NCBI RefSeq assembly: GCF_003050965.1
Contig: NZ_QAOU01000006.1
Location: forward strand, 62,001 to 126,000
DNA: 64,000 nt
DNA from: Nitrosospira sp. Nsp2
Lineage (GTDB): Bacteria; Pseudomonadota; Gammaproteobacteria; Burkholderiales; Nitrosomonadaceae
Reading direction: 5' to 3'
Shown: piece by piece, positions 1 through 62,055 of the stretch
How the letters are laid out: every line of letters begins with the position of its first letter
Position numbering within the stretch: the stretch's first letter is position 1
Translations under genes and position numbers: made by a program
Notes under the pieces: generated by a model
Told to the model about the DNA's origin: nothing
Seen by the model: only the letters and a program-made list of their open reading frames with translations
Database searches by the model: none

Positions 1-3000
1 CGGATGAACAGGATCTTGATGCTGACGTCGACGCTGACGCCAGCGCTGACCTGGATCAGAATCGCCTGATAGCTTTCGACATCAAGGCTGATCGAGGCAT
101 AGACGGTCAGGCTGACACCCGCCGAAACGATCCCGAAATCGACCGTCGCATAGACTTCGCCGATGAGCGCCACCGTACCGGTGAGATGGTGATAGCGTTC
201 CGAAGGCAGATTCGAGTCGCAGGGCGTGTACCAGCCGAGCACGCCCCGGAGCGCGCCGCCCACGGTGATGCTGATCCCGCCGCTAAGGATGCCGAGCGAC
301 AGCGTTTTACCAACGCCGATCTGCAGCGCAAAGCCGAACTCCACCACCGTGCCGAAATGGCCGCTCGTCACCTTGGGGACGCTGGTGGATGTCTCGCCGT
401 TGAGCTTTGCGAAATAGAGCCCGGCAAAGCCCGTGAACGGGAACACCTGGACGCTGAAAGAGCGCGAGAAATCGGTGAGGCTCGGCGGATAGCCAAGGTC
501 GATGCGGAAATCGCCGTTGGTGTAGATGTCTAGCGTCACGACCGGCAGCGTGATCGAGACTTCGCCGAATTCGAGATGGCGCATCACGTCGGGAAGCGTC
601 AACTCGATATGGTAGACACCGATCGTGTCGGTGACCTTGCGGTAGAGGATCTCGAAACGCAGCCCGGCGAACAGCCCCGCTTTCTCGCCCGAGAGCTGGA
701 TCAGCAGCCCATAGACCACGGGATCGTTGAAGATGAGGTCCATCTTCAGGGTCGACATCACCGTGAAGCGCGTGCCGATCAGCCAGTTGCTGTCAGCATC
801 ATAGGCGATCCCGTCGAGCTGGCTGACTGGATTCTTGTTGGGATCGGAAGGCGGCCGCATCGCCGCCTCGAGCGCATCGATGATCTTGTCCATCTCGGTG
901 GGAACCGAGCCCGAGATGGCGACGCGCTGGCCGATGCCGAGGAATTCGAGGTCGAGCACTTGCGTGCCCGCGCCGGGTACAGCGGGGGGCGGATCGTTGA
1001 GCGCGTCCCACTTGAGCGGCGGGTTGTTGTTCTTGCCATAGGGCTGGCCGAGGAAGGTGCCGCTGAGTTCTAGGTTGAACTGGGGCGTGCCGTAGTTCCG
1101 GCTGTAGTTGAGAACGATCTTCTCGAGATCGAGGAAGCCGAGGTTGACGACATGGTCGAGCTCGACGCGGATCGCCTTGGTGGTGAGGTTCACCGTCACC
1201 GAGATGTCGGGAAGCTCGATCTTCTCGAACGCGTCCCACGGCGATCCGAGCGAGACCGAGCGGCCGGGGTCGGCGAACGACAGGAGAAAGGAGAACAGAT
1301 CGCCGACTGTGCCGCGGCCGAGGCTGATCGTGACGGTCGGCCCGCTCGCATCCTTGTGGTAGCCGATCGTCAGGCTGCGATAGACGAAGCTAATGCCCAT
1401 GCTCGTCGGCAAGAAATCGTAGCGGACCTGGAGCACCAGGCCGTGGATGTCGAGCATGCCCTTGAGGAAGCCGGAATATAGACCGGCGGTGCGGATCAGC
1501 GAGAGTTCGGCGGTGATCTCGGTGTCGATGTCCTCGATCTTCCAGTCGACCACGGTATCGAAGCTGAAGCTGCCGCCGGTATCGAACGCGACGGCTAGCG
1601 ATTCCACGATGATGTCAGGCGGCGTGAAGGCGAAGGGCAGCAACGCCTCGGTGACGTTCGACAGCGGCAGCGGATTGACCAGCGTGCCGGTGAACGACCA
1701 GAGCTTGCTAACGCTGTCGGTCGCCGCGGTGACGAGGAACTGCGATCCGAACAATGTGGCGGTGGCGCCGATTGCCAATGCGCGCGAGGAGCTGGACTGG
1801 GCGATCGAGAGGGAGACTGCGTCGAGCCCGATCACCGTCTCGCCCTTCAGCTTGATCGACCAGCTGTCATCGAGGCTGACGTCGCCGGTGAAGCTCCAGG
1901 TCTTGTCGGGGATCGATACCGTTCCCGACAGGACTTCGACCGTCATCCCGGTCTGGGGCGGCTGAACGCCGAATATCGCGAGTAGGTCACCGACGTCGAA
2001 GGTCGAGATGTTCTGCGCGCTGAGCAACTTGTCGGGCAGGCTGAACGCGGCAAGGAAGGCGAGCTGGTCGCTCCCGCCGAGATTGAAATTGCCGCCGAAA
2101 GTGATCGAGACGTCCGTGCCGCCCATCCAGGCGAAGGTGGCGCCGACCTGAGTTAGGTTGAGCAGATTCGCCGGCAGCAACGGCCAGTTGAGCGCGTTGT
2201 CTGTGCTGATCGTCACCTGCAGAAGCTGGAGGCTGCCGGCATCAGACGACAGGCCGAGCTGGACATCGTCGAGGTACAGCTGATTGCCCAGGCTGAACTG
2301 CGGAGGGATCAGCGCGGCGAGCTGCTGGCCGACGAACAGCCCGGCAAGCGCGCTGAGATCGGGAATCGCGAAGTTGCTCAGTTGGCCACTGTCGAGCGAG
2401 GCGGGAATGCCGGCCGATACCGGCAGCGCGCAGATCATCTGCAGGCCGTTCAGCTTGGTACCGGGGCTGACGATCTTGCCCAGGAGCTGGCCGCTTCCCT
2501 TGCCACTCGCCACGGTAAGGCTCATCTGGATCTGCAACCCCAGCAGGCCCGCGTTCGCCGACGCGTCAGCGGGGGCGGACGTGGCGAGCTGGAATGCCGG
2601 CGTGCCGCCCCAGCTGGTGATCGGCCCGGCGAGCACCGGGGTCTTGCCCGACCAGAGCTTGGAATAGGCAGTTTGGGTGAGATCGGGCGTGCCGTTGAAC
2701 TGGAGCGTGGGCGGCGTGCCCGAGCTTGCGATGAAGCTTGCCGCAGAGAATGCCTGCGTCGCCGGCGCGGATTCGGGGTCGAACGTGGGGAAGGCTATCG
2801 CGAGAACGGTGCCTGGCGCCGTGGTGACGGTGAGCGCGAGCGATGGGACACCACTGCCGTCGATCATGAACGTCGCAACCGCCACGGCATTGGTCTGGCC
2901 GAGGAAGCCGCTGGTGAGCGTGCCGGAAATTACGATTGAGCCGCCGGGCGGCTGCGTCGCCGTCACCGCGATCGACAGCGCGCCATTGGGGAACAGCGTG

Positions 3001-3143
3001 GTATCGCCGATCAGAGTGCTGATTCCGGGCGATCCCAGCGCATTGCTCGCGGGCAGGTTCAGCGATCCCGCGCTGTAATAGCCGTTGCTTTGGAGCGCGC
3101 CCCACAGCTGATCGATCGTGGTGGTTGCCAGGGATTTCGTGAT
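1..3143 (-). CDS. Giant beta-rich protein of unknown function, C-terminus beyond the window
   Basis: A reading frame stays open for about 1047 codons and leaves the window at its left edge. I do not recognise the family. The protein is rich in Gly, Ser, Thr and Val with alternating hydrophobic residues (for example GVSVTVYASISLDVES near the window edge), suggesting extended beta structure, and has no signal peptide. It follows the upstream giant gene after a single TAG and in the same frame. The codon after the TAG is ATC, preceded by a GGGAG purine run, and the first in-frame ATG (2867-2865) is 92 codons inside, so the true start is unclear. Either ATC or another weak codon is used, or both frames were once one gene. 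Last known member of the seven-gene block. Confidence 0.6.
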   Translation of the reverse strand, partial: MTKSLATTTIDQLWGALQSNGYYSAGSLNLPASNALGSPGISTLIGDTTLFPNGALSIAVTATQPPGGSIVISGTLTSGFLGQTNAVAVATFMIDGSGVPSLALTVTTAPGTVLAIAFPTFDPESAPATQAFSAASFIASSGTPPTLQFNGTPDLTQTAYSKLWSGKTPVLAGPITSWGGTPAFQLATSAPADASANAGLLGLQIQMSLTVASGKGSGQLLGKIVSPGTKLNGLQMICALPVSAGIPASLDSGQLSNFAIPDLSALAGLFVGQQLAALIPPQFSLGNQLYLDDVQLGLSSDAGSLQLLQVTISTDNALNWPLLPANLLNLTQVGATFAWMGGTDVSITFGGNFNLGGSDQLAFLAAFSLPDKLLSAQNISTFDVGDLLAIFGVQPPQTGMTVEVLSGTVSIPDKTWSFTGDVSLDDSWSIKLKGETVIGLDAVSLSIAQSSSSRALAIGATATLFGSQFLVTAATDSVSKLWSFTGTLVNPLPLSNVTEALLPFAFTPPDIIVESLAVAFDTGGSFSFDTVVDWKIEDIDTEITAELSLIRTAGLYSGFLKGMLDIHGLVLQVRYDFLPTSMGISFVYRSLTIGYHKDASGPTVTISLGRGTVGDLFSFLLSFADPGRSVSLGSPWDAFEKIELPDISVTVNLTTKAIRVELDHVVNLGFLDLEKIVLNYSRNYGTPQFNLELSGTFLGQPYGKNNNPPLKWDALNDPPPAVPGAGTQVLDLEFLGIGQRVAISGSVPTEMDKIIDALEAAMRPPSDPNKNPVSQLDGIAYDADSNWLIGTRFTVMSTLKMDLIFNDPVVYGLLIQLSGEKAGLFAGLRFEILYRKVTDTIGVYHIELTLPDVMRHLEFGEVSITLPVVTLDIYTNGDFRIDLGYPPSLTDFSRSFSVQVFPFTGFAGLYFAKLNGETSTSVPKVTSGHFGTVVEFGFALQIGVGKTLSLGILSGGISITVGGALRGVLGWYTPCDSNLPSERYHHLTGTVALIGEVYATVDFGIVSAGVSLTVYASISLDVESYQAILIQVSAGVSVDVSIKILFI

Positions 3144-6100
3144 CTAGCTCCCGCCCGGCAGTGACTTACGCTGCTCCGGCTGTTGTAGCCGCGCCCGCCG
3201 CTGCTGTTGCAGCACCTGCTGCTGCTTCTTGCTGCCGCCCCCCGCGCCGTTCTTGACATAGGCGGCGAACCAGCCGATTGCGCCGCTCGTTTGCTGCGCG
3301 GGATTGCCGAACAGCGTCATGTTGATCTGGCCGTTGGGCGGGAAGCTGACACTCAGGAACTTGAGCGCGATGTTCCTGAGTTGGATGAGGTAGGTCGGCG
3401 GCGCGACGACGAAGCTGATTCCGCCGAAGACGAGGCTGATCACGCCTTCGAGCGAAATCGCCCGCTGGCCGCCCGAAACGCCGGGCAGCGACAAGCCGCA
3501 ATAGATGGCCGCGTCGTTGGAATTGGGCGCCCAGGCCAGCAGCAGCCCGGCGTTGAACCCGGTAGCCGCTGCCAGCGCGCCCGGCGTGCCGAGGTCGAGA
3601 TCGAACCGCAGCGCGAACCAGGGCGCAGAGACCATGCTGCTCTGGATCGGCATCTCGACCGGCATGAAACCAAGGCTGTCGGGCGTGACGCTTCCCAGCC
3701 CCTGGATGAGGGCGGTGAGCTTCATCGGGAAGTGGCTGACGAGGCTGGCCGCGCGCGCGAGACTGGTGGCTGGATCGACGACCAACTTCGACGCGTCGAA
3801 GGCGAAAGTCTGGTAGCTGGGAGTTGCTTCGTTGAAGCTCATCTCGACCGCAAGCGAGCGATAGCAGAGGCCCTGCTCGATCGTCTCCGCCACCGTCTCC
3901 GGACCATAGGAGAACAGGTCAAACCCCTTTTGCGGCAGGAAAGCGATGGCACCGTCGAGCTGGAAGGTGGCGTTGACCACCGGGTTCTGGTCGGTACTGC
4001 CGGGCAGGGTGACGAAGGTGGCACCGGTGATCGCCACCTGTTCGAGCACACGGCTGGCCACCGTATAAGCGGCTGGTCCGCTGGTCACGAAGCGGTAGGT
4101 GCCGACTTCCTTGCCAGAACCGCTCGTGTCGCCGCTCTTCTGGTAATAGCCGTTAAAACCGAGATTGTTGTCCGACGCGCCGATCTGCGTCACCCGCTCG
4201 CCGAACAGCTTGTTGACGAGCAGCTCGACCTGGCTGGAGAAGCCGGCGACCTGCGAATTCGTGATCAGCACCTTGAGCGTGTTGACCTTGAACGCATAGT
4301 CGTCGCTGCTCTGGAGTGGTGCCGGATCCTGATAGTCGATCAGCCCGAAGATCGAGCTGGGCGCGGCAGTGAACGACTGGGCGCCCGGCGTGACCGGCGT
4401 GACCGACACGCCAACATGGTGCGCCTTGAACGCTGCCGGATCGATGCCCGCCGCCAGAGCGCGCATCTGCTCGGGCAGCCCCGACAGCGGCACGAGCGCA
4501 TTGAGTGCGATGATGCCGTTCCACGAGGGATCGTCGAGCACGGTGTCGACGAAATAGGTGAGGTCGGTATCGGTCTGCTGGCGCGTGCGGGCATCGACGA
4601 TGATCTGGCCGATCTGCTGCGCCATCGCTGCGGTATTGGCATTGAAGGCATCGCCGGCGCTCCACTGGCTCGGGTCGGCGGCGGCTTGCGACAGCTTCTT
4701 GTTGCAGAATTTGAAGATCAGGATCGTCTGGTGCTCGGCCCAGCGCCAGGGCGAAAGATCGAACTCCCAGGCATCGGCGCCGGCCGCGCCTGCGGCGAAC
4801 AGGCTGAAATCACCGGCATAGGTCCGCACGATATCGAAAAAACTCGCCATCGCGGGCGGCACGCCGGCGGCGAGCACAGCGGACTTGAGCGCAGCGAGGT
4901 TCGGATAGGCGACCGCACCGTTCTTGACGAGCCCGAGCAGCCATTGCTGGCAGGGCTGGTCGCTAATCTTCGGATTGATCACGTCGACGCGCTCGGTCGA
5001 GAGTTCGTACGCCATGTCGCTGTCGGCGAGCAGCAGGTCGCCCGCCGAGACGACGAGGAAGAGCTCGTTGGTCTGCAGCGCCGCCCGCAGCTTGCCGGCG
5101 ACGTTCTGGAGGATCAGGCCGGGTTGGCGGGGGGCGTCCGGCGGAGGCGCGGACATTGCGAGTGTGAGATCGGCCCAGCTGCCCTGGTCGCCGAACCTGA
5201 GCAGCAGCCCCTGCCGCGTCGTTCCGCAGGGCGGATTGGGCGCTTTGCCCGGCGGAGGCTGGGGCCCATTGGCGGCGGCCGCGGCGCTTCCGCCGGGCGC
5301 CGGCTGCAGCGTCGCCAGCCTCTTGGGCGACCAGGCCTGGCGCTCGAACTGGCCGAGATCGTGGAGCGACATGCCGACCCCGATCGCCACTGACCCATAG
5401 GGCAACAGCGGGAAGGGCGTGCTTGCGCCTGCGGGCAGTGTGGAAATCTGCATCGGCAGATAGGCGAGGAAGCTCGATCCGCTGGGACCACCTTGGTGGA
5501 GCACTGCCTGGTCCGGCTGAGAGAAATAGGCAGTGCCATCACTTGGGGCGACGATCGAGGCCCAGGCGGTGGTCGCCGCCCCCGTCAGTGCTCCGAAGGT
5601 GCGGCCCACGTCCTTGTCTGCCGCCGACACCGTCGGCGCGAAGGCCGGCTGATCGGGGACGAAGACCAGCGTGGCCGCTGCCGGGGCATTGAAATATTCG
5701 ACCGGCGACAATCCCCCCATCAGCGTCGGGCCGAGCGTCGATGCCACCGCTGCGCCGCCGGTGGCGCCGGGAAGCGCCAAGTCCACCGTCCCGCTAGGCA
5801 CGATCGTGTAGACTGGGTTGCCCGGCACCGGAGTCCCCTTCGAATCGACAGCGGCGAGGCGCGATGCGAGCACGAAGCTGAAGTCCGAACCGAAGGTCGC
5901 ATGCCATGCCGGGCCGGCCGCGCTGCGGTAAAAGCTGGGTACCGTCGTTCCCGAGGCAGGCACGAGGAAGCTACGGTCGTGATTGGTGGGGTCGAGCGGA
6001 TCAAGCGTCGCGGCGAGCGTGACGTTGCACTGGCTGAAATCAAAGGGCCGGTGCAACGCGGTCTGCGCATAGCCGCCCGCAGGCGGCGCGCTGTAGGAGC

Positions 6101-6719
6101 GCATCCCGACATCGAGCGAGTCGAGCCCCGCGGCATTGGTCGCGAAACTGAAGGCGGCGCAGCCGACGCCGGCGGCGTCCCCAGCAAGATTGAGCAAAAG
6201 CGGCCCGGTGATCGGGAAATTGACTGGCGTGCGCGCACCAAAGGGAGTCACAGCGACCGCGATCGGGCTGGTTGCCGCCGTGAAGGCCAGGGTGGTGCCG
6301 TCAGTGCTCGCAGCGAGCAAGGTGCCGCGTGGCAGGCTGATCGCGAAATTGCCGAACTGGATCGACGCGGTGCCGGTCAGCGCCGAGCGACTTCCGGAGA
6401 GACCGGCGAAGATCGTCCACCCCGCGAGCCCGGCCCCCGGCTTCGCGGCGTTGATGAACCAGCTGAGCACCGCACCATTGCGTGCCGACGAAGCGAACCA
6501 GGTCTGTGCCGCGGAGACGAAAGCCGGCACCGCGGAATCGGCGACCGGCCCGGTGATGAGGAACCAGCCTTGCGCCTTGAGCGCGTCGGAAAGCGCGACG
6601 GTGGGTGGCGGGGTGCTGCCGATCGGGAAGAGGAAGCCGGTGACGCCGCCACCGGCGGGTCGCCCGGCAGGGACGTAGAGCAGGCTGCCGAAACCGAAAG
6701 GCTGTAGCGCGACACTCAT
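3144..6719 (-). CDS. Giant beta-rich protein of unknown function (1191 aa)
   Basis: I chose the ATG at 6719 rather than one 53 codons upstream because it overlaps the previous gene's TGA as ATGA and has an AGGGGTG ribosome site. The protein is Ala/Gly/Ser/Thr-rich and looks mainly beta, without a signal peptide or membrane segment. Residues near 510-560 form a Pro/Ala/Gly linker. The last 30 residues are a low-complexity Gln/Arg tail (KKQQQVLQQQRRARLQQ). No enzyme motif is visible and I do not recognise the family. Position and coupling imply it is made in a fixed ratio with its neighbours; a structural, adhesive or toxin role is only a guess. Long plus-strand frames over this gene are shadows of its GC-rich codons. 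Confidence 0.75.
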   Translation of the reverse strand: MSVALQPFGFGSLLYVPAGRPAGGGVTGFLFPIGSTPPPTVALSDALKAQGWFLITGPVADSAVPAFVSAAQTWFASSARNGAVLSWFINAAKPGAGLAGWTIFAGLSGSRSALTGTASIQFGNFAISLPRGTLLAASTDGTTLAFTAATSPIAVAVTPFGARTPVNFPITGPLLLNLAGDAAGVGCAAFSFATNAAGLDSLDVGMRSYSAPPAGGYAQTALHRPFDFSQCNVTLAATLDPLDPTNHDRSFLVPASGTTVPSFYRSAAGPAWHATFGSDFSFVLASRLAAVDSKGTPVPGNPVYTIVPSGTVDLALPGATGGAAVASTLGPTLMGGLSPVEYFNAPAAATLVFVPDQPAFAPTVSAADKDVGRTFGALTGAATTAWASIVAPSDGTAYFSQPDQAVLHQGGPSGSSFLAYLPMQISTLPAGASTPFPLLPYGSVAIGVGMSLHDLGQFERQAWSPKRLATLQPAPGGSAAAAANGPQPPPGKAPNPPCGTTRQGLLLRFGDQGSWADLTLAMSAPPPDAPRQPGLILQNVAGKLRAALQTNELFLVVSAGDLLLADSDMAYELSTERVDVINPKISDQPCQQWLLGLVKNGAVAYPNLAALKSAVLAAGVPPAMASFFDIVRTYAGDFSLFAAGAAGADAWEFDLSPWRWAEHQTILIFKFCNKKLSQAAADPSQWSAGDAFNANTAAMAQQIGQIIVDARTRQQTDTDLTYFVDTVLDDPSWNGIIALNALVPLSGLPEQMRALAAGIDPAAFKAHHVGVSVTPVTPGAQSFTAAPSSIFGLIDYQDPAPLQSSDDYAFKVNTLKVLITNSQVAGFSSQVELLVNKLFGERVTQIGASDNNLGFNGYYQKSGDTSGSGKEVGTYRFVTSGPAAYTVASRVLEQVAITGATFVTLPGSTDQNPVVNATFQLDGAIAFLPQKGFDLFSYGPETVAETIEQGLCYRSLAVEMSFNEATPSYQTFAFDASKLVVDPATSLARAASLVSHFPMKLTALIQGLGSVTPDSLGFMPVEMPIQSSMVSAPWFALRFDLDLGTPGALAAATGFNAGLLLAWAPNSNDAAIYCGLSLPGVSGGQRAISLEGVISLVFGGISFVVAPPTYLIQLRNIALKFLSVSFPPNGQINMTLFGNPAQQTSGAIGWFAAYVKNGAGGGSKKQQQVLQQQRRARLQQPEQRKSLPGGS

Positions 6720-7411
6720 TTTGGCACCCCTGGATGCGGGCTCGAGAGCACGGGGGCGGGTTTGGCCGAGGCGTTGGTCTGGGTCGAACGCTTGCCCGGC
6801 ATCGAGCCGTCGTACAGGTACTTGCCCGTCGAATCGTGGACGGTGATGTTGTAGCCTTGGAAATTCTGTTGAACGCAAAGCAGCGTGATCACGCCATTGC
6901 CATCGGCTCGAAGCGTCAGCGGTGACGATCCGACGAAATCAGGAATGAAATCGACGAATGCATTCGGAATCGGCGCATTCTGGCTGTCCACGATCATGAC
7001 CGGAAAGACGTCGTAGATCATGGTTTGCCGGCCGGCGGTAACGCCCGGCTGCGGCAGGATCAGTTCGTAACTAGGCATACTCCGCGAATCGGCGACGAAC
7101 GCGTCCGACGTCAGGAACGGCGTGAAGGTCGCGAAGATGCTGTAGCCGGCCTGCGTGTTGCGAAACGGCCAGATGATGATGCCCCATTGGATGGGAGGGC
7201 CCGGGCTGACCAGCCTCAGTGGGACGTTGATCAGCCACCTGTTCACGTCGTTGTCGACCACGAGCACGACCGGATCATCGCCTTCGCTGCCGGTGGCGCC
7301 ATATTTGGCGCATTCCTTGGGCAGCGTGAAGGATTGGGCCATCGACGCGCCGGCGGCGAGGAGCATGGCTGCGAGCAGCCAGTGCATGAGGCCGGGCGCC
7401 ACCCTCAGCAT
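6716..7411 (-). CDS. Secreted protein of unknown function with a C-terminal beta-sandwich-like region (231 aa)
   Basis: The start at 7411 gives a clear signal peptide (hydrophobic WLLAAMLLAAGASMA, cleavage after AQ) and overlaps the TGA of the upstream EEP gene as ATGCTGA; an AGGTGAG ribosome site precedes it. The mature protein begins near FTLPKECAKYG and has two Cys that could form a disulfide. Residues about 130-205 (VMIVDSQNAPIPNAFVDFIP, then a turn and further strands) resemble a carboxypeptidase-regulatory/Ig-like beta-sandwich. It overlaps the next gene by 4 bases. Function unknown; export to the periplasm or beyond is well supported. Confidence 0.7.
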   Translation of the reverse strand: MLRVAPGLMHWLLAAMLLAAGASMAQSFTLPKECAKYGATGSEGDDPVVLVVDNDVNRWLINVPLRLVSPGPPIQWGIIIWPFRNTQAGYSIFATFTPFLTSDAFVADSRSMPSYELILPQPGVTAGRQTMIYDVFPVMIVDSQNAPIPNAFVDFIPDFVGSSPLTLRADGNGVITLLCVQQNFQGYNITVHDSTGKYLYDGSMPGKRSTQTNASAKPAPVLSSPHPGVPK

Positions 7412-8289
7412 GTCAGGCTCACCTTGGCGACCACGCCCATATGGTCCGACACATCTCTGCGCCAATTGAGCAGGCTATAGGTCCCCGTATAGGTCCAGCT
7501 TCCGCCCGTTTGCGCGAATGTCACCTGCGGTAGGGCGGAGCTCTGGGCCTTAGTATAGACGCCGTGGTCATAGGAACTGCTCGGCATGCCCGCAGTGGTG
7601 AGGCTGGTGGGCACATTGGGATCGATCGCCACGTCGTTCCCGTTCACCCAGCCGAAGCCAGTCTTGTCGTCGGCAGGCAGGTTCCAGTCGCCCGCGACGA
7701 TTACCGAGCCATTTTTCATGTTCGTCAGCGCTTTGTACACGCCCAACATTGCCGCGGCTTCAGCCTGGCGGTCGGAGACTTTGTTGCCGAAGATCGAATG
7801 GATATTGACGATCCATACATCGCACGATTTGGGAGTCGACGTGCTGCTGTCGGTGACCTGGAAGCGCGCCGCATAGGGGGGGCGCATGAAGGTCGCCGTG
7901 GTGCTCAGCGCATCATTTTCCTCCATCAGCTTGATTTGCTGTTGGTTGCGCTGGTTGGTGCGGTAGAGGATCCCGTAATATTCGACATAGGACGAACGCC
8001 CCTTTGCCACGGAGGAGATATAGGCGAAGTCCTTCGGGATCGGGATATTCACGCCTTTGCTGTTATTGTTGGCCAGGCACGGATAGCGGGCCAGCATTAC
8101 TTCCTGCAGGACGATGATGTCGACCGTTGCCGATGCTGCGGTAATCGCATTGCACTGGTTCGCCAGACGGCTGCCGTGCCCGAAGCGCAGTACGTTCATC
8201 GACAAGATCGTGAAGGTTTGTGCCGACGCCGCGCATGAGAGCAGGGCTCCCGCCAGCACAAACGCCAGGCCGAGGAGTTTCAGGTTCAT
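7405..8289 (-). CDS. Secreted endonuclease/exonuclease/phosphatase (EEP, DNase I-like fold) family protein
   Basis: A 294-residue protein with a signal peptide ending ASA-QT near residue 23. It carries the ordered EEP catalytic motifs: Asn32 in SMNV, Glu63 in IIVLQEVM, an IVNIHSIFG histidine, GDWNLP, and a terminal SDHMGV histidine. Families with this fold include secreted DNases, sphingomyelinase C and inositol phosphatases; the substrate cannot be read from the motifs. Its ATG overlaps the upstream stop as ATGA and its own stop overlaps the next start, so it is embedded in the seven-gene block. In this context a phospholipid or nucleic-acid substrate outside the cell is plausible but unproven. 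Confidence 0.8.
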   Translation of the reverse strand: MNLKLLGLAFVLAGALLSCAASAQTFTILSMNVLRFGHGSRLANQCNAITAASATVDIIVLQEVMLARYPCLANNNSKGVNIPIPKDFAYISSVAKGRSSYVEYYGILYRTNQRNQQQIKLMEENDALSTTATFMRPPYAARFQVTDSSTSTPKSCDVWIVNIHSIFGNKVSDRQAEAAAMLGVYKALTNMKNGSVIVAGDWNLPADDKTGFGWVNGNDVAIDPNVPTSLTTAGMPSSSYDHGVYTKAQSSALPQVTFAQTGGSWTYTGTYSLLNWRRDVSDHMGVVAKVSLTC

Positions 8290-9581
8290 CAGGATGTTCC
8301 CGGAAGGTAGATCGTTAGATAGTCACCCTTGATCAGCGGTGTGTCGAAGCCGTCGCCGAGGGGCCCGACGGCGGACGCGGCCTGGGACAGGTCGATCGCG
8401 CCGATATTGAACCTGGGAGTGCTCCGGTCGATCGGCTGCATGTTGGGCTGGCCCCAGCGCTGCACGGCAAGCTGCAAGTTACTCGTCGCGGACCCCTGCT
8501 GCATCTGCATCGGGATCGGATCTGCGAATCGCTGGACGAGGTTGCGCACCGTGGTGCCGATCGGCACCAGTTGCTGCGTTCCCATCACCCAAACCCGGAC
8601 TTGGGGCACGAGCGTCACCCGGCCGACGAAGACAATGCTGACGATCGGATCGGCGCCGCTGCTCTGCGACCCGCAGGCGCTTTGTCCGGCCACCACGGCG
8701 GCGGTCGCGGCCTCTATGTCGGCGAAGCTCGATGCGCCGAGCAGGATGCAGCTCAGCTGGTTGCTTGAGCCGCTATTGTCGACGCTACCCGCGCCGGAGA
8801 AGCTGGTCGGCCAGACCAGCCGCAAATGGCGCCGGCCATTGCCGAGCAATTGGAGATCGACCGGCCCGCCCGCGAGCAGGGGGCATTCGGTCGGCGGCTG
8901 GAGCGAAATGCCTTGGGTGAACTGCGCGGAAAAGCCGTCAAAGGCGAGCGTGCCATCGGGCCGCAGCAAGATCTCGAGATTGCTGCTTCCTGTCGTCCCA
9001 AAGCCGTTGAGGCCCGCGCCCGCGCCGCCGGGACCGTTGCAATATTGATAGCCTGCCCAATCGACGCGCAGCGACATGCCGGGCAGCAGGTCAATGCTCT
9101 GCGCCACGGGATCGAAAGCGTAGTAATAGCTCAGGATCTCGTCGAAGCGCAGCGGCATCGCCGACGCGAGGCGATTGACGATCAAGTTCGAAGCGCCGGG
9201 CAGCAGCGGCGGCGAGCTCACCGACTCGAGAGCTTCCAACTGCGCGCGGAAGACCTTGAACGCCATCGCCATCGCCGCCCGCTGGGTCGAGTCCGAGCTC
9301 CACGCTGCGCCCTTGTCGACATTGACCTGGACTGCAGGGAGCGGGGAATTTCCCTGCGGCGAGAAGATGCTCAGCGTGAAGGTCGACTGCGTCGTCGGTG
9401 CCGGTGAAGGCAGCATCACGCTGGGCAGCGTCACGTTGCCCGAGCGCACGTTCGGCGCGACCGGGCCGACCACGTAGATAGTGACCGTATTGCCCGCACT
9501 AGCCCCGGAAGGCACCAGGAAGGGGCCTACAGCGCCGCCGCCGCCAAAGCTGTTAGTGACGCTATATTGGCCGTTTGGCAT
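8289..9581 (-). CDS. Protein of unknown function (430 aa) in the island operon
   Basis: I place the start at the ATG at 9581 (MPNGQYSV) because GGAG lies 7 bases upstream; an ATG at 9605 is possible. The start lies inside the previous gene, 20 bases before its stop ends, and the stop overlaps the EEP start as ATGA. The N-terminus is Gly-rich (TNSFGGGGAVGPF), followed by a strand-rich region with a VTIYVVGPV stretch, a helix near residues 110-150, and a C-terminus ending GDYLTIYLPGTS. No signal peptide and no recognised family. The tight overlap with both neighbours argues that it acts with them. Confidence 0.7.
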   Translation of the reverse strand: MPNGQYSVTNSFGGGGAVGPFLVPSGASAGNTVTIYVVGPVAPNVRSGNVTLPSVMLPSPAPTTQSTFTLSIFSPQGNSPLPAVQVNVDKGAAWSSDSTQRAAMAMAFKVFRAQLEALESVSSPPLLPGASNLIVNRLASAMPLRFDEILSYYYAFDPVAQSIDLLPGMSLRVDWAGYQYCNGPGGAGAGLNGFGTTGSSNLEILLRPDGTLAFDGFSAQFTQGISLQPPTECPLLAGGPVDLQLLGNGRRHLRLVWPTSFSGAGSVDNSGSSNQLSCILLGASSFADIEAATAAVVAGQSACGSQSSGADPIVSIVFVGRVTLVPQVRVWVMGTQQLVPIGTTVRNLVQRFADPIPMQMQQGSATSNLQLAVQRWGQPNMQPIDRSTPRFNIGAIDLSQAASAVGPLGDGFDTPLIKGDYLTIYLPGTS

Positions 9582-10014
9582 GCACCATCTCCGGCTGTTC
9601 AGCAACGCCTGCGTCGGAAATCACATAGGTGACCATAGGGCTGTAGGTTGATGCGTTGGCGGCGCTGTACGATAACAGGATCGTGCTGGTGCCCGAGACG
9701 ACGCCGTAGGCAATCGCCGGATTTGTCGGAGTCCAGTTCCAAGACATGCTGATCGAGCCGCCGCTGGCGGGAATGAGGGTGATGATCCCTCCGACGCCGG
9801 CAGATATCGACGCGCCGACATTGATATAACTGGTCGAGCCGGCCGCCAGCACCGTGCCGGCCACGGGCGCCGTGCCGCTCCAGTTGCCGCCGGTCAGCTC
9901 CGCAGCCTGAATTTCGAGCTCGGCAGACGAGGAGTTGAGGATAGTGATGGTGATGGTGATGGTGATCACCATGCCTTGGCTCGCCTTGAGCATCCGCTCT
10001 TCCCGACCTGTCAT
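9562..10014 (-). CDS. Aegerolysin-like small beta-sandwich protein, copy 2 (150 aa)
   Basis: This protein is a paralogue of the next gene to the right. Both share the order: hydrophobic strand ITITI, NSS, LTGGNW, a Pro/Gly-rich loop, a Phe or Tyr strand, GG-I-L-PASGGSI, then WxWxxP or a variant. That pattern resembles the aegerolysin/ET79 beta-sandwich family (small membrane-binding proteins, some insecticidal with a pore-forming partner). The assignment is by eye and tentative. No signal peptide. It starts with a run of alternating Ile/Thr codons (GTGATG-type repeats at 9943-9966). Its end is overlapped by the next start. Start codon choice between 10014 and 9993 is uncertain. Confidence 0.65.
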   Translation of the reverse strand: MTGREERMLKASQGMVITITITITILNSSSAELEIQAAELTGGNWSGTAPVAGTVLAAGSTSYINVGASISAGVGGIITLIPASGGSISMSWNWTPTNPAIAYGVVSGTSTILLSYSAANASTYSPMVTYVISDAGVAEQPEMVHAKRPI

Positions 10015-10070
10015 AATGCCGCTTCCTGGAAGCGGCGCACCGCTGGCGGCCGCCGCGGTTTGGTGGGTTG

Positions 10071-10517
10071 TTACTTGGCGGCTTGCTCTAGCGCTTGGGT
10101 TAGCGTCGCGGTGTCCACGACATAGACCTGCAGGGTCGGATTGTTGGTCTGCGGGTTGATCACGCTTGATGTCACTGAGAGGCCAGTCAGGGTGCTGGTG
10201 CTGGTGCTGCCGGTCACGCCCAAGCCGTGCGGCCAGCTCCAGGTGATGGTGATCGACCCACCCGAAGCGGGCGCCAGCTGGATGTCGCCGCCGAGCACGG
10301 AGAAGACGTTGCTTGCGCCGTTGACGAACGAAACATTGCCCGCGCTGATCACGTTCCCAGGCACGGGCCCAGGCTCGGACCCCGAGCCCTCCCAGTTGCC
10401 GCCCGTGAGTTGCCCGGAGGCGATCCCGAGATCGCCGTCGCTCGAATTGTTGATCTGGATAGTGATCGAACGGACGGTGCCGTTGTCGTCGGCAGACAGA
10501 TTGTTATCAGTAGCCAT
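10071..10517 (-). CDS. Aegerolysin-like small beta-sandwich protein, copy 1, first gene of the island operon (148 aa)
   Basis: The start at 10517 (MATDNNLSADD) has a strong AAGGGGAG ribosome site; an ATG 15 codons upstream lacks one. The core runs SITIQINNSS, LTGGNWEG, a Pro-rich loop, VSFVNGASNVFSV, GGDIQLAPASGGSITITWSW and P, which matches the spacing of aegerolysin-type proteins, where a W-x-x-P follows the last core strand. No signal peptide. The gene is followed after 56 bases, including a GCTTCC/GGAAGC inverted repeat, by its paralogue. As the first gene behind an AT-rich leader it probably lies nearest the operon promoter. The family call is an inference from pattern only. Confidence 0.65.
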   Translation of the reverse strand: MATDNNLSADDNGTVRSITIQINNSSDGDLGIASGQLTGGNWEGSGSEPGPVPGNVISAGNVSFVNGASNVFSVLGGDIQLAPASGGSITITWSWPHGLGVTGSTSTSTLTGLSVTSSVINPQTNNPTLQVYVVDTATLTQALEQAAK

Positions 10518-11621: not shown

Positions 11622-12389
11622 ATGACTGATTTCTGTGGAAATGGTACTCCTTTAACCACGGATGGATTACAGGCTGCTGAATGTTGTGCGGAAGTTGGCT
11701 TGGCTGAAATTTGGTCAGTATTCTCCGTTGAAACATCCGGCTGCGGTTTTTTAACCGATAAACGTCCAAAAATTCTCTTTGAGCGACATATTTTCAGCCG
11801 TCTTACAAATGGTGAATATGATGCAAAGCACCCCGATATCAGTGCGCCAGCGGCGGGTGGTTATGGTGCAAGCGGTGCATATCAGTACGGCCGTCTCGCG
11901 TCCGCGATCCAGTTAGATAGGGAAGCCGCCCTCCAAAGTGCCTCTTGGGGTCTCGGGCAAATCATGGGCGAGAATTTCAACGAGGCCGGATTTGACGATG
12001 TCGAAACAATGGTTGCCCAAATGGTTTCTGGTGAGAACGCGCAATTATTGGGAGTCGCCACATTTCTTAAAAGGAATAACTTGGATCAGTTGCTTCAGGC
12101 ACACAACTGGTCAGGATTTGCCCAACGCTATAATGGTCCCGATTATGCAGCCAATAATTACGGTGGCTTACTCAATCATTTTTACCAACAATACAGCAAT
12201 GGAAAATTACCTGATCTGAGTGTCCGGGCCGCTCAAATCCTTTTGACATATAAAGGATTTTCTCCCGGAGGGATAGACGGCATACTGGGACCCAATACAA
12301 TAAATGCAGTTAAGTCATTTCAATCTTCAGAAGGAATTCAAGTCACAGGTGTGATTGATGACAATCTTATGAGGTTTTTATCAAGCTAG
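11622..12389 (+). CDS. N-acetylmuramidase (DUF3380) endolysin with C-terminal peptidoglycan-binding domain
   Basis: A 255-residue cell-wall lytic enzyme. Residues 25-190 match the N-acetylmuramidase domain: FSVETSG with Glu37, ILFERHIF with Glu54, then AASWGLGQIMG. Residues about 195-254 form a type 1 peptidoglycan-binding domain (LLTYKGFSPGGIDGILGPNT). There is no signal peptide, as in phage endolysins that need a holin, and none is visible nearby. A GGAG ribosome site lies just before the ATG. Base use is AT-richer than the operon to the left. It sits between the aegerolysin-like operon and toxin remnants in the island, so it may serve phage lysis or release of a toxin. Confidence 0.85.
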   Translation: MTDFCGNGTPLTTDGLQAAECCAEVGLAEIWSVFSVETSGCGFLTDKRPKILFERHIFSRLTNGEYDAKHPDISAPAAGGYGASGAYQYGRLASAIQLDREAALQSASWGLGQIMGENFNEAGFDDVETMVAQMVSGENAQLLGVATFLKRNNLDQLLQAHNWSGFAQRYNGPDYAANNYGGLLNHFYQQYSNGKLPDLSVRAAQILLTYKGFSPGGIDGILGPNTINAVKSFQSSEGIQVTGVIDDNLMRFLSS

Positions 12390-12560
12390 CTTGAGCGGTT
12401 TGGTACTAAAAAAGCTGGAACAGGGACTGATTCAATTGATTTCAAACGAGCGCTGATAGCAGCACTTCTACAAAAATTTTCGTTTCCTACTCGAATTGGG
12501 AAACTGAGTGAGCGTCCGTATATTAACCATTCAAGACTTGCGTTCCTTATGCTGGATTGA
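12390..12560 (+). other. Open frame continuing in phase after the endolysin stop
   Basis: Directly after the TAG of the endolysin the same frame stays open for 56 codons (starting LERFGTKKAGTGTDS, ending RLAFLMLD). It reads like protein but has no start codon of its own. It could be a remnant of a second gene or of a once longer protein. No family recognised. Confidence 0.25.
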
Positions 12561-12869
12561 CAGGAAGGTGTGGACGTTCCAGGAAACACCACCATCATGT
12601 TTTGTGACCTCCTCGGGCACCAACAGCCCATTTTCTTCTATGAATTTTGAGGGCAGTTCACGGTCATCCGCCGAATCAAAGGTGTCATCCTCGTTGTGTT
12701 TTGGAATGCCGGTATCGGTTTTTCGGGAAATGTTTTGAAGAAAAATAGAAAATCCCAGCCCAAAAACATTGTTTCTGGAACCTGATTTATAGTTGAGGCT
12801 TAGTTGTGGTTCAAAGCCGCGGGCCGACGTCAGAACAATGGGAATAAAGTAACTGCCGATATCTGACAA
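12531..12869 (-). pseudogene. Fragment of an SpvB/TcaC-type toxin-complex protein
   Basis: The translation carries the N-terminal signature of the SpvB domain found in Salmonella SpvB and in TcaC/TcdB proteins of insecticidal toxin complexes: GSYFIPIVLTSARGFEPQLS, then LNYKSGSRNNVFGLGF and ISRKTDTGIPKHNEDDTF. Family members are many hundreds of residues long; here only about 110 remain and the end (FLSIQHKERKS) no longer fits the family. The frame has no good ribosome site and is a truncated relic. With the chitinase-like relic next to it, it suggests that a Tc-type toxin locus once stood here. Confidence 0.75.
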
Positions 12870-13215: not shown

Positions 13216-13966
13216 CTTTTAATTCTTATTGTTGTCGTCCAACACCTGCTGCGCGGTTTGGTAGTTCGACTCGAATTTCACCCCATAGGCGAAAAGATCC
13301 TCGTTGACTCCCGCGCTGATGTATTCTCCAGGGTACGTGAAACCAGAGTAAAGTTGCAATGTCACCCAGTCCACATTGTCATTAACCGCTTTGGCATCGA
13401 TGTTTCCGACAGAGGCGGGAGCCATTGACAGATCGAACCGCTCACTCTGCTTTTTAAATTCGGCACCGATAGCATTGATGAGAAGCTTGAACTGCTCCTG
13501 CGTAGTTTCAAAACGGAGCGGGTCCTCCCAATCGATCCAGAAGGCCTTCAAGTTGTAGTGGGATAGATGGGCAACTAAGTTCGCGGCGAAGGACTCGGCA
13601 CTTTTCTGATCAGGATTGGCTGGATCAGGGAATATCTGCGACAGCTGCTTTCCGTCGCCCCAGAGTAAGGTGACGCCGAGCAGGATGTTCGGGTTGTTCT
13701 GTGGTGCATCACAATAATGTTCTCCATGTACGGTTGGTTGTGGGTGTAAGCCCCCATTTGAGGGTATGAGAAGAACCATCACCCACCGGAATTGTTGTCT
13801 CGCTTGTTGGAAGGGTTTCGACAAAACACATCAATAGCAGATCGACAGCCTTGTAGATGTCATCGTTGATCAGCCGCTGATAGCAGCTATTAGGACTGTC
13901 ATAGGTTGTTCCTGAGGGTTCGTCCTCGTTCAGATAGATCCAAGCATTTACCATATTTTTGCGCAT
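13216..13966 (-). pseudogene. GH18 chitinase-like protein, broken by two frameshifts
   Basis: Three minus-strand frames join into one protein: first MRKNMVNAWIYLNEDEPSGT to PVGDGSSHTLK, then MGAYTHNQPYMENII, then DAPQNNPNILLGVTLLWGDG onward. The last part has GH18 traits: LKAFWIDWEDP at the catalytic strand, FDLSMAPAS, and WVTLQLYSGF. The usual DxxDxDxE is reduced to a form around WIDWED, so activity is uncertain even in an intact copy. Switch points lie near 13760 and 13705. GH18 proteins occur in insecticidal Tc complexes, consistent with the SpvB-type relic alongside. Sequencing error at two sites is the alternative to true decay. Confidence 0.6.
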
Positions 13967-14668: not shown

Positions 14669-15919
14669 TCAGTTATTTATGTGTAATGCGTGGAGAGGGT
14701 TACATATATTATCGCTGTTTATTGCTGTTTTCCCGCCAATCTTCACCACATCGGCGCTCGTCTTTACTCCTGCGGCCGCCATCATTGCGCTCGTAGCTGC
14801 GTTTACGCTATCTCGAACAGGATCAAGATCCAGCCTGGCGTAAATGGCTGTCGTGTTCTGGTTCTTATGGTTCAGGCTTTTACCAATAATCGCCAATGAC
14901 GCGCCAGTCTTGGCTTGCCAGCTTCCCAAGGTGCGCCGTAAATCATGAATCCGTAAGTCATTGATGCCTGCGCTCGCCAAGATACGCTCCCATGCCTTCT
15001 TTGGCTCCGCCAAGTGCCCGGTCTTTCCCCTACCAGGAAAAATAAACCTTGAAGGTTGTTCAGGCTTACGATCGCGCAATACTGCCAACGCTTCTGGCGA
15101 CAGCGTTACCGTTTGCGGAGTACCGTTCTTTGTTTCCTTAATGCGCCATTCTGCTCGTTCAAAATTCACATCAGCCCATTCCATAGCCAGTACATTTGAA
15201 CGGCGCGCGCCAGTAAGCAGAGACAGCAGGAAATAATCCCGCATTGTGTCGTTATGCTCCTCCGCCAACGCTTTGAAGAAACGGGGCAGCTCATCGGATT
15301 GGAGAAAGCGGTCGCGTGACTGCTCGGGGAATTTCTGAATACCATGAGCAGGATTCTCGCCCAACCAGATCCTCCATTCATTGATAGCCTTGTTGAACAT
15401 CACGTGTAGGAGCTTTATAGCAATGTTCGCGGTTACGATGCCGTTTTCGCGTCCAATCTTCTTGTGCAGTCTGTCCACTTCCTCATGCTTGAGCGTGGAA
15501 AGCTTCCGTTTTCCCCAATGAGAAAGGTACAGCCGATAGTTCGCTTGCGGCTTATCCGGCCTTCTATTAAAGGCTGCACGCCTAGTCATGTATTCACTGA
15601 ATAGGTCGTCCAGCATCATTTCCCTTCTTGCCGCCCGGGCACGATCGGCGGGATTTCCGCCGCCGGCAATAGAAGCATTTATCTCTGCCGCCGTCCGTCG
15701 AGCCTGCTCGATGGTTGTTGCGGGATACCGGCCTACCGTGACACGTTCGGGCCCGCCGCCCTTCGTGCGCCGATATACGGAAAAGGTTATGATTCCGTTC
15801 GAGGTAATGCGCAGCTGCAGACCGGAAATTTTCGAATCAAGGTAGGTATTTCGCTTGCCCGCTGATGGGAGCGGCAATGCTTCTATTGCTGCTTTGGTGA
15901 AATTGATACTTGTTGCCAT
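14669..15919 (-). CDS. P4-type tyrosine integrase with N-terminal DUF4102 domain
   Basis: A 416-residue site-specific recombinase. The start at 15919 (MATSINFTKAAIEALP) matches the family N-terminus better than an ATG 19 codons upstream. Residues 5-85 are the DUF4102 arm-binding domain (TYLDSKISGLQLRI), 90-190 the core-binding domain, and 200-380 the catalytic domain with Arg in LLTGARRSN, HDLRRTLGSW and a late Tyr in TTAIYARLDLD. It reads away from a tRNA-Arg 3' fragment 157 bases upstream, the normal arrangement of an integrase beside its attachment site. It looks intact and probably mobilised the island to its left. Confidence 0.93.
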   Translation of the reverse strand: MATSINFTKAAIEALPLPSAGKRNTYLDSKISGLQLRITSNGIITFSVYRRTKGGGPERVTVGRYPATTIEQARRTAAEINASIAGGGNPADRARAARREMMLDDLFSEYMTRRAAFNRRPDKPQANYRLYLSHWGKRKLSTLKHEEVDRLHKKIGRENGIVTANIAIKLLHVMFNKAINEWRIWLGENPAHGIQKFPEQSRDRFLQSDELPRFFKALAEEHNDTMRDYFLLSLLTGARRSNVLAMEWADVNFERAEWRIKETKNGTPQTVTLSPEALAVLRDRKPEQPSRFIFPGRGKTGHLAEPKKAWERILASAGINDLRIHDLRRTLGSWQAKTGASLAIIGKSLNHKNQNTTAIYARLDLDPVRDSVNAATSAMMAAAGVKTSADVVKIGGKTAINSDNICNPLHALHINN

Positions 15920-16075
15920 GACAAACGAGTGCAGCGGGGTTACGCCGGGGTTACGGTATGGGTGTAATTTTAGCAAACTTTGTATAACTCCGTTAAGGTT
16001 AATTCCGGCTGAAACCCGCTATTTATATAGGTTTGTAAAGGTCTAACAATATGGGTAAATGATGAGCCTGAGAAA

Positions 16076-61759: not shown

Positions 61760-61833
61760 TGGAGCGGGTGAAGGGAATCGAACCCTCGTCGTAAGCTTGG
61801 GAAGCTTCTGCTCTGCCATTGAGCTACACCCGC
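61760..61833 (-). tRNA. tRNA-Gly(CCC)
   Basis: A 74-base tRNA with CCA encoded. Acceptor GCGGGTG pairs with CACCCGC, discriminator T. D arm GCTC-GAGC, anticodon loop TTCCCAA (CCC), T arm with TTCGATT loop. The outer anticodon pair is a G-A mismatch. It reads into the asmA-like gene. Confidence 0.95.
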
Positions 61834-62055
61834 GATTCGGGCAGATTATACGACGAAATACCGAAGGTTGGGCTGAGCCGTTACCCCGTGCAGCTCAAAC
61901 GCGTCTCTTCACACGGTGCGCAGAATGCAGGCGGAAAGAGGCCGGATTCTCGACTATTAGACTTGTGCCCGCGTATAATTCATCTTCCGATCAGACTGTT
62001 TAAAGCCGACCATGCCAGCTACGCAAGTAACGTCGCCGTCTTCGCTGGATTTTAA

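Follow-up and report, generated by a model that had tools for sequence, protein, structure and literature searches.

The described bacterial systems that come closest to the gene block treated here are the Tc toxin complexes (TcA-TcB-TcC), contractile injection systems and phage tails, polymorphic toxins, secreted DNase I-like nucleases of the endonuclease/exonuclease/phosphatase (EEP) fold, and LysM proteins that bind cell wall or chitin. The block consists of seven genes on the minus strand of a 64,000-nucleotide stretch of Nitrosospira sp. Nsp2 (positions 62,001 to 126,000 of contig NZ_QAOU01000006.1, here contig C6; this whole stretch is called the window). Like the Tc complexes, as these are generally known, it has giant proteins, several parts and an exchangeable enzyme payload, which is a likeness in the way the systems would work, but TcA, TcB, TcC, SpvB and RHS domains are absent from its seven products (Pfam, E up to 0.1). 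LysM domains and separately encoded payloads are likewise familiar from contractile injection systems and phage tails, whereas sheath, tube, baseplate and tail families are lacking in the block (PHROGs) and its component B has no phage relatives. With the polymorphic toxins it shares the kinds of enzyme (DNase-like, HNH, deaminase), Hint proteins in some loci and the turnover of enzymes, but the recognised enzyme here has a gene of its own and does not form the C-terminal end of a large exported protein, and no immunity gene was identified in the block, where the gene following the enzyme, P0003, is without a family match. The enzyme itself resembles secreted DNase I-like EEP nucleases by its profile and catalytic residues and differs from them by sharing an operon with components B and C. 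Component C, finally, has the LysM modules of wall- and chitin-binding proteins, and differs by its conserved core, which is not LysM and belongs to no known family.

We propose, with a probability of roughly 0.4, that the block is a member of a horizontally spread multi-protein assembly that binds polymers of N-acetylglucosamine (GlcNAc) and has an exchangeable enzyme acting on nucleic acid. Its constant parts would be B and C, often together with component A, and its variable part an enzyme of a nucleic-acid-acting kind. The seven open reading frames (ORFs) all lie at the coordinates given by an earlier sequence-only reading; in window positions they are:

10071 to 10517, minus strand: P0007, a small protein of 148 aa paired with P0006, judged by translation and paralogy
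9562 to 10014, minus strand: P0006, 150 aa, of the same small-protein family as P0007
8289 to 9581, minus strand: P0005, component A, 430 aa
7405 to 8289, minus strand: P0004, the enzyme, 294 aa, EEP fold, DNase I-like, with a signal-peptide-like N-terminus
6716 to 7411, minus strand: P0003, 231 aa, with a signal-peptide-like N-terminus
3144 to 6719, minus strand: P0002, component B, 1,191 aa
1 to 3143 (N-terminal 1,047 aa) and on to contig C6:52253, minus strand: P0001, component C, 4,296 aa in total

The same reading had called this an operon of undescribed makeup. It is indeed absent from the libraries searched: no description of the operon was recognised in a PubMed Central collection that mostly lacks subscription papers, and nothing on this system was found there on Bd3614 and on the combination of LysM, Hint and metallo-beta-lactamase (MBL) proteins.

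Distribution and linkage of components B and C

A tblastn search with B found 8 of 72,556 plasmid records, and a separate search with the C core returned the same 8. A scan of GTDB with a profile of three C cores gave 57 loci, which is a lower bound because they were found by peptide patterns. By record title, 56 of these fall into nine phyla (Pseudomonadota 15, Acidobacteriota 15, Actinomycetota 8, Bacteroidota 8, Cyanobacteriota 6, and one locus each in Vulcanimicrobiota, Bacillota, Verrucomicrobiota and Chloroflexota), with one (Aminicenantes) unassigned; many of the loci come from metagenome-assembled genomes (MAGs), whose bins may include foreign contigs. The tally below comprises 63 loci (numbered with L), namely the 8 from plasmids and 55 of the 57 from GTDB, after removal of L033, which duplicates L010, and L036, which duplicates L009.

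B is present in 56 of the 63 loci: in 51 it lies upstream of C on the same strand and at most 3.4 kb away, as measured on stop-to-stop frames, and in five it is fused with C in one ORF (L061, L065, L068, L071, L073). In the seven loci without B (L020, L034, L038, L044, L050, L062, L072) the C frame opens at most 2.4 kb from a contig end, and the enzyme is still visible in three of them (L034, L038, L050). As B and C are neighbouring or fused in every B-bearing locus and have no signal peptides, they most likely belong to one large assembly that is made in the cytosol. Among 398 sampled Pseudomonadota genomes (numbered with G), C occurs in three, including the window's own, and B in six; all three with C also have B, G169 among them being apparently the genome of L018, and another of them, G405, encodes the two as a single ORF. 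Two observations weigh against a strict linkage: three of the 398 genomes have a partial B (826, 241 and 244 profile positions) but lack C in the stretches that were fetched, and L034:1-816 of a Blastocatellia MAG, upstream of the MBL enzyme, has no match to B, L034 being the only one of the truncated loci in which some of B should have been visible.

The full seven-gene order (small, small, A, EEP enzyme, P0003, B, C) recurs in L017 (a Sphingomonas MAG), L018 and L019 (Pseudomonas) and L024 (Kosakonia sacchari), while the other loci with A mostly have the order A, B, enzyme, C. Synteny in other genomes, the lack of which had been named as a ground for giving up the idea of one system, is therefore conserved. 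On a quick C tree the phylum labels change 24 times, compared with a minimum of 8 and a mean of 32.4 for shuffled labels; the system is conserved and has spread horizontally across about nine phyla. Two large families without models in the libraries searched travel together with an exchangeable nucleic-acid-acting enzyme.

The 18 genomes behind loci in which copies of B were counted have one copy in 16 cases and two in 2, one of these partial. A partial B of 901 aa lies at L110:9399-12101 (G127), with no C within the 20 kb fetched. In Aequorivita antarctica (L094:1992-8082) the region downstream of C encodes a collagen-repeat protein, a second, 251-aa homologue of the B N-terminus, and glycosyltransferases.

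The exchangeable enzyme

P0004 matches Pfam PF03372 (Exo_endo_phos) at E 1.1e-8 and has a signal-peptide-like start, in agreement with the earlier description of a secreted EEP-fold enzyme. A profile of the window's EEP clade finds DNase I in the PDB at E 3.3e-19, and the five rows below 0.01 are all DNases. In the DNase I family the catalytic residues are Asn, Glu, His, Asp-x-Asn and Asp-His, and these (N/E/H/D/N/D/H) are invariant in 7/7 aligned EEP enzymes. P0004 is thus a DNase I-like EEP enzyme with intact active-site residues, and its nuclease activity is predicted. The wider set of EEP seeds has GDxN in 19/19 and (S/T)DH in 18/19, the exception being the L058 seed, which is clipped ahead of its SDH motif.

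An enzyme is recognised in 38 of the 63 loci, always as a separate ORF, and in the remaining 25 none is. Its usual place is between B and C, and the clade of the window has its EEP gene upstream of B. EEP enzymes occur in 23 loci and MBL-fold enzymes in 13, and no locus has both; in addition, an HNH enzyme was assigned to L030 and a deaminase to L053 by their motifs. Pfam alone finds Exo_endo_phos in 14 of the 38 scanned neighbours, Lactamase_B in 5, HNH in 1 and a deaminase in 1, so that the MBL count of 13 rests partly on a custom profile, whose seeds included one out-of-frame 40-residue piece of L034, and on motifs. The motif (S/T)HxDxDH, which we take to mark the ComEC kind of MBL, is present in 11 of the 13 MBL seeds; it is degenerate in L049, and the true frame of L034 has it. 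One MBL protein compared with the PDB gave nothing significant, ComEC appearing only at E 0.99. A quick C tree of 62 rows, from which L015 and L072 were left out, requires at least two switches between EEP and MBL. As the enzymes are exchangeable and of nucleic-acid-acting kinds, we lean, short of proof, towards a carrier of effectors.

The same enzymes may also be read as parts of an intracellular anti-phage or anti-plasmid conflict system, with B and C as the sensor of the invader and the exchangeable nuclease as the intracellular effector. Defence systems are known to use these kinds of enzyme, most of the enzyme seeds are without signal peptides, the occurrence across phyla is patchy, and PADLOC reported LmuA in 8, RTasMBL in 8 and PtuB in 1 of the 38 scanned proteins. 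However, PADLOC covered only the set of enzymes and small proteins, no ATPase or known sensor was seen, the LysM modules of C and the fn3 and LamG modules of A (see below) point to the cell exterior, and the window's own enzyme has a signal-peptide-like start; we thus consider such a function improbable.

Two further loci are of note here. Oceaniradius stylonematis (L039:4988-8004) has two tandem EEP enzyme genes with B on one side and C on the other, and NARROW LEAF 1 domains were found in 1 of the 38 neighbours, perhaps the upstream gene at L014:12230-13207 of the Paenibacillus plasmid pART37, an assignment made by position and unconfirmed.

The giant proteins

A Pfam scan of all seven products at E up to 0.1 returned only LysM-type families, Exo_endo_phos and DUF5130. 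B and the C core have no family in the libraries searched and no sequence relative in the PDB, where the sole row for B is a bleomycin-resistance protein at E 0.35. In an NCBIfam search of nine B proteins, TIGR02813 appeared in one member at E 0.00022 and was judged a chance match. The predicted structure of B is a confident multi-domain model (pLDDT 85.9, pTM 0.75) for which no clear Foldseek or VIA match was found in the PDB and no BFVD match below E 0.03.

C has a conserved, long-stranded beta core at about residues 540 to 1085, with LysM modules further along. In P0001 the LysM match reaches E 3.3e-46 (155.4 bits against a curated Pfam cut-off of 20.9), and 14 of 16 C proteins have LysM at E up to 0.001; the nearest solved chains include cell-wall-binding enzymes, or cell-wall endopeptidases, and Ecp6, a protein that binds chitin. 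The C end is also conserved among 16 relatives. As a single ORF, C reaches 4,680 aa; other loci have it divided over two or three ORFs, and Tistrella, for example, has a further ORF (1,487 aa) with a match to the later part of C. Of the two giant beta-rich unknowns announced earlier, then, both lack a known family in B and in the C core, but C is not wholly unknown, as it carries LysM repeats. Nor did the giants match any known adhesin, tail or storage family, a match that had been expected to speak against the sequence-only reading; the fold search covered B and a model of the C core taken from the first 1,047 residues, and the giants may yet have a known fold. In the proposed assembly, the long amphipathic beta core of C would be joined to LysM modules that hold the whole on GlcNAc polymers, either peptidoglycan or chitin.

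The strands of the C core are long and one face is strongly hydrophobic, and the fold search gave only porin-like beta arrangements, with weak Foldseek similarity to ApoB100, LptD and VDAC. Together with the fact that the EEP fold includes lipid phosphatases, this could suggest a lipid-handling giant, with sheets that make up a hydrophobic groove or belt for moving or packaging lipid and with an enzyme that is a lipid phosphodiesterase. The listed Foldseek hits, however, have TM-scores (by query length) of only 0.06-0.14, the EEP profile matches DNases alone at E below 0.01, and neither HNH proteins nor deaminases, which take the enzyme's place elsewhere, act on lipids; we regard a role in lipid handling as slightly less probable again than one in defence.

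Still further down the scale, and in our opinion very improbable, is a derivation from a phage tail, a contractile injection system or a Tc complex. The logic of a carrier with an exchangeable payload would fit, LysM domains occur in baseplates, and fragments of SpvB and of a GH18 chitinase lie near the block. Against this, PHROGs gave for C only lysis-type (endolysin), LysM and transglycosylase families and for B only phrog_11242 (unknown, E 0.0068), no relative of B was found in 50,697 phage records and neither B nor C in viral contigs by pattern, the BFVD result for B was as above, and none of the seven proteins has a Pfam match to an SpvB, RHS or Tc family. A phage or viral origin in general was rejected on the same searches of PHROGs, phage records, viral contigs and (for B only) BFVD, which gave no relatives.

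In this strain there is no ATG, GTG or TTG where C abuts B, and the first standard in-frame start is a GTG at window position 2966, so that expression of full-length C is uncertain; the gene may be impaired or have an internal start. At the corresponding position the Sphingomonas relative does have a standard start codon.

Component A and the small proteins

The A profile is present in 35 of the 63 loci. Elsewhere A has 1,000-2,000 aa, and P0005 corresponds to the C-terminal part of those long forms. All seven A proteins tested have fn3 or LamG modules, six of them over the Pfam cut-off: fn3 is found in four (three over the cut-off) and LamG/ConA-like modules in three. Proteins with a Hint domain are encoded upstream of A in Tistrella (annotated) and in Magnetospirillum (a Pfam match below the cut-off). 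Hint-like ends were also read by eye in L081 and L085, which have no Pfam match there.

P0006 and P0007 are paralogues (37% identity over 127 aa) with counterparts in L017, L018, L019 and L024. They had been described as aegerolysin-like, which their sequences do not support: Pfam gave no aegerolysin in 10 small-protein members at E up to 5, a search in which the HMMER filters drop most matches above 0.1, and among PDB chains the small-protein profile has no aegerolysin match up to E 10. The sole Pfam match among the 10 members is fn3 in one of them, at E 0.072. The argument for membrane targeting that was built on the aegerolysin label is accordingly unsupported, while the two broader ideas put forward with it, a multi-part toxin and an extracellular assembly, are both viable. 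We suggest that the target would be bound by A or, in the window's clade, by A together with both small proteins. P0003, which has no family match in Pfam, follows the enzyme in the five operons with a signal-peptide enzyme and, among the loci searched, occurs only beside that form of the enzyme.

Location and possible function of the assembly

In a crude test by a hydropathy threshold, only P0003 and P0004 of the seven products have signal-peptide-like starts, as the sequence-only reading had stated; A, B, C and P0007 of the window have no such N-terminus. Elsewhere such a start was called in 0/46 B rows and 1/42 C rows, some of which begin where the profile match does, inside the protein. 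Besides the window's enzyme, 3 of 19 EEP seeds (L017, L018, L024) and none of 12 MBL seeds have one.

These calls bear on the view that the block encodes a surface or matrix assembly, a giant wall- or chitin-bound scaffold with binding modules that displays or retains a nuclease, by which extracellular DNA would be used or cleared, and that delivers nothing into other cells. The LysM repeats, with Ecp6 and cell-wall-binding enzymes as nearest chains, the fn3 and LamG modules in A, the collagen-repeat protein and glycosyltransferases that adjoin one operon, and the signal-peptide-like starts of the enzyme and P0003 in this strain all agree with it. On the other hand, the window's A, B and C, all 46 B rows and 41 of the 42 C rows have no signal peptide in the crude test, nor have 16/19 EEP and 12/12 MBL seeds of other loci, and a matrix would be an unexpected place for deaminases and HNH enzymes. 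We therefore think that a scaffold of this kind is unlikely, though less so than the alternatives discussed above.

According to the assembly we propose, the enzyme (here the DNase I-like EEP protein) would be the payload, either held or delivered. We infer that the parts form a complex that is exported, reaches a target and may be toxic, by killing or by digestion of a neighbour's nucleic acid. A more specific version, which we put forward only tentatively, is that the block belongs to an unnamed class of delivery machine, in which B and C are a wall- or chitin-binding carrier, the beta core is a possible translocation path, the effector is swappable, the target-binding component is separate and the whole is a cassette that moves between phyla. 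Such a machine, in this equally tentative form, would be unrelated to Tc complexes, contractile systems, type VI secretion systems or Sec-exported polymorphic toxins. If B and C do form a carrier, this would be a new bacterial means of placing enzymes on or in other cells; should they form only a surface assembly, names and partners would still be gained for giant ORFs whose present annotation is hypothetical or LysM. Several such giants occur in cultured strains and are hence testable.

Layout and genomic setting of the block

The block extends over about 20.3 kb (C6:52253-72517), with C reaching beyond the window edge. A 56-base gap follows the first gene, and the further junctions overlap or abut as had been noted: by 20 bases at 9581/9562, by the seven bases ATGCTGA at 7411/7405, by the four bases ATGA at 6719/6716, and by direct contact of B and C at 3144/3143. 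An ATGA reported at 8289 is instead a one-base overlap in TGATG. The ORF caller is greedy and start positions may be misplaced. A promoter scan found none. Relative to the Sphingomonas sequence, dN/dS is 0.23 for A, 0.21 for B and 0.25 for C, 0.34 for the enzyme, 0.32 for P0003, 0.44 for P0006 and 0.53 for P0007, which indicates that the block is more than a series of chance ORFs and that its genes are constrained, the large ones most.

The host genome (3.46 Mb) encodes ammonia monooxygenase. Of 23 genomes from the genus only the window's own has C, and of 41 in the relatives' set only the window's own has A. The closest relative is the Sphingomonas MAG, with 77% DNA identity across 12.6 kb in one alignment and a C core that is 90% identical. 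The GC content of the block is 62-69%, compared with 46-59% elsewhere in the window and 50-54% on the left side. The block is imported and rare in its host lineage. It had been placed in an integrase island, and a phage-type integrase gene (window 14672-15976) indeed lies to its right and a transposase gene with an rve integrase core (L002:8155-8973) to its left, but no clean empty site was found in a same-species genome, where the right flank is unmatched and the left flank has only dispersed partial matches.

A gene for a muramidase with a peptidoglycan-binding part lies at window 11622-12389, to the right of the block, and a partial copy, 78% identical, at C6:51022-51587 to its left; this duplication may reflect the mode in which the block was inserted. 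The fragments of an SpvB N-terminus (E 8.7e-19) and of a GH18 chitinase (E 6.8e-10), at window 12534-12869 and 13222-13824, both on the minus strand, lie between the block and the integrase and look like the remains of another locus. Distant from the block, a tRNA-Gly(ccc) gene is found at window 61760-61833.

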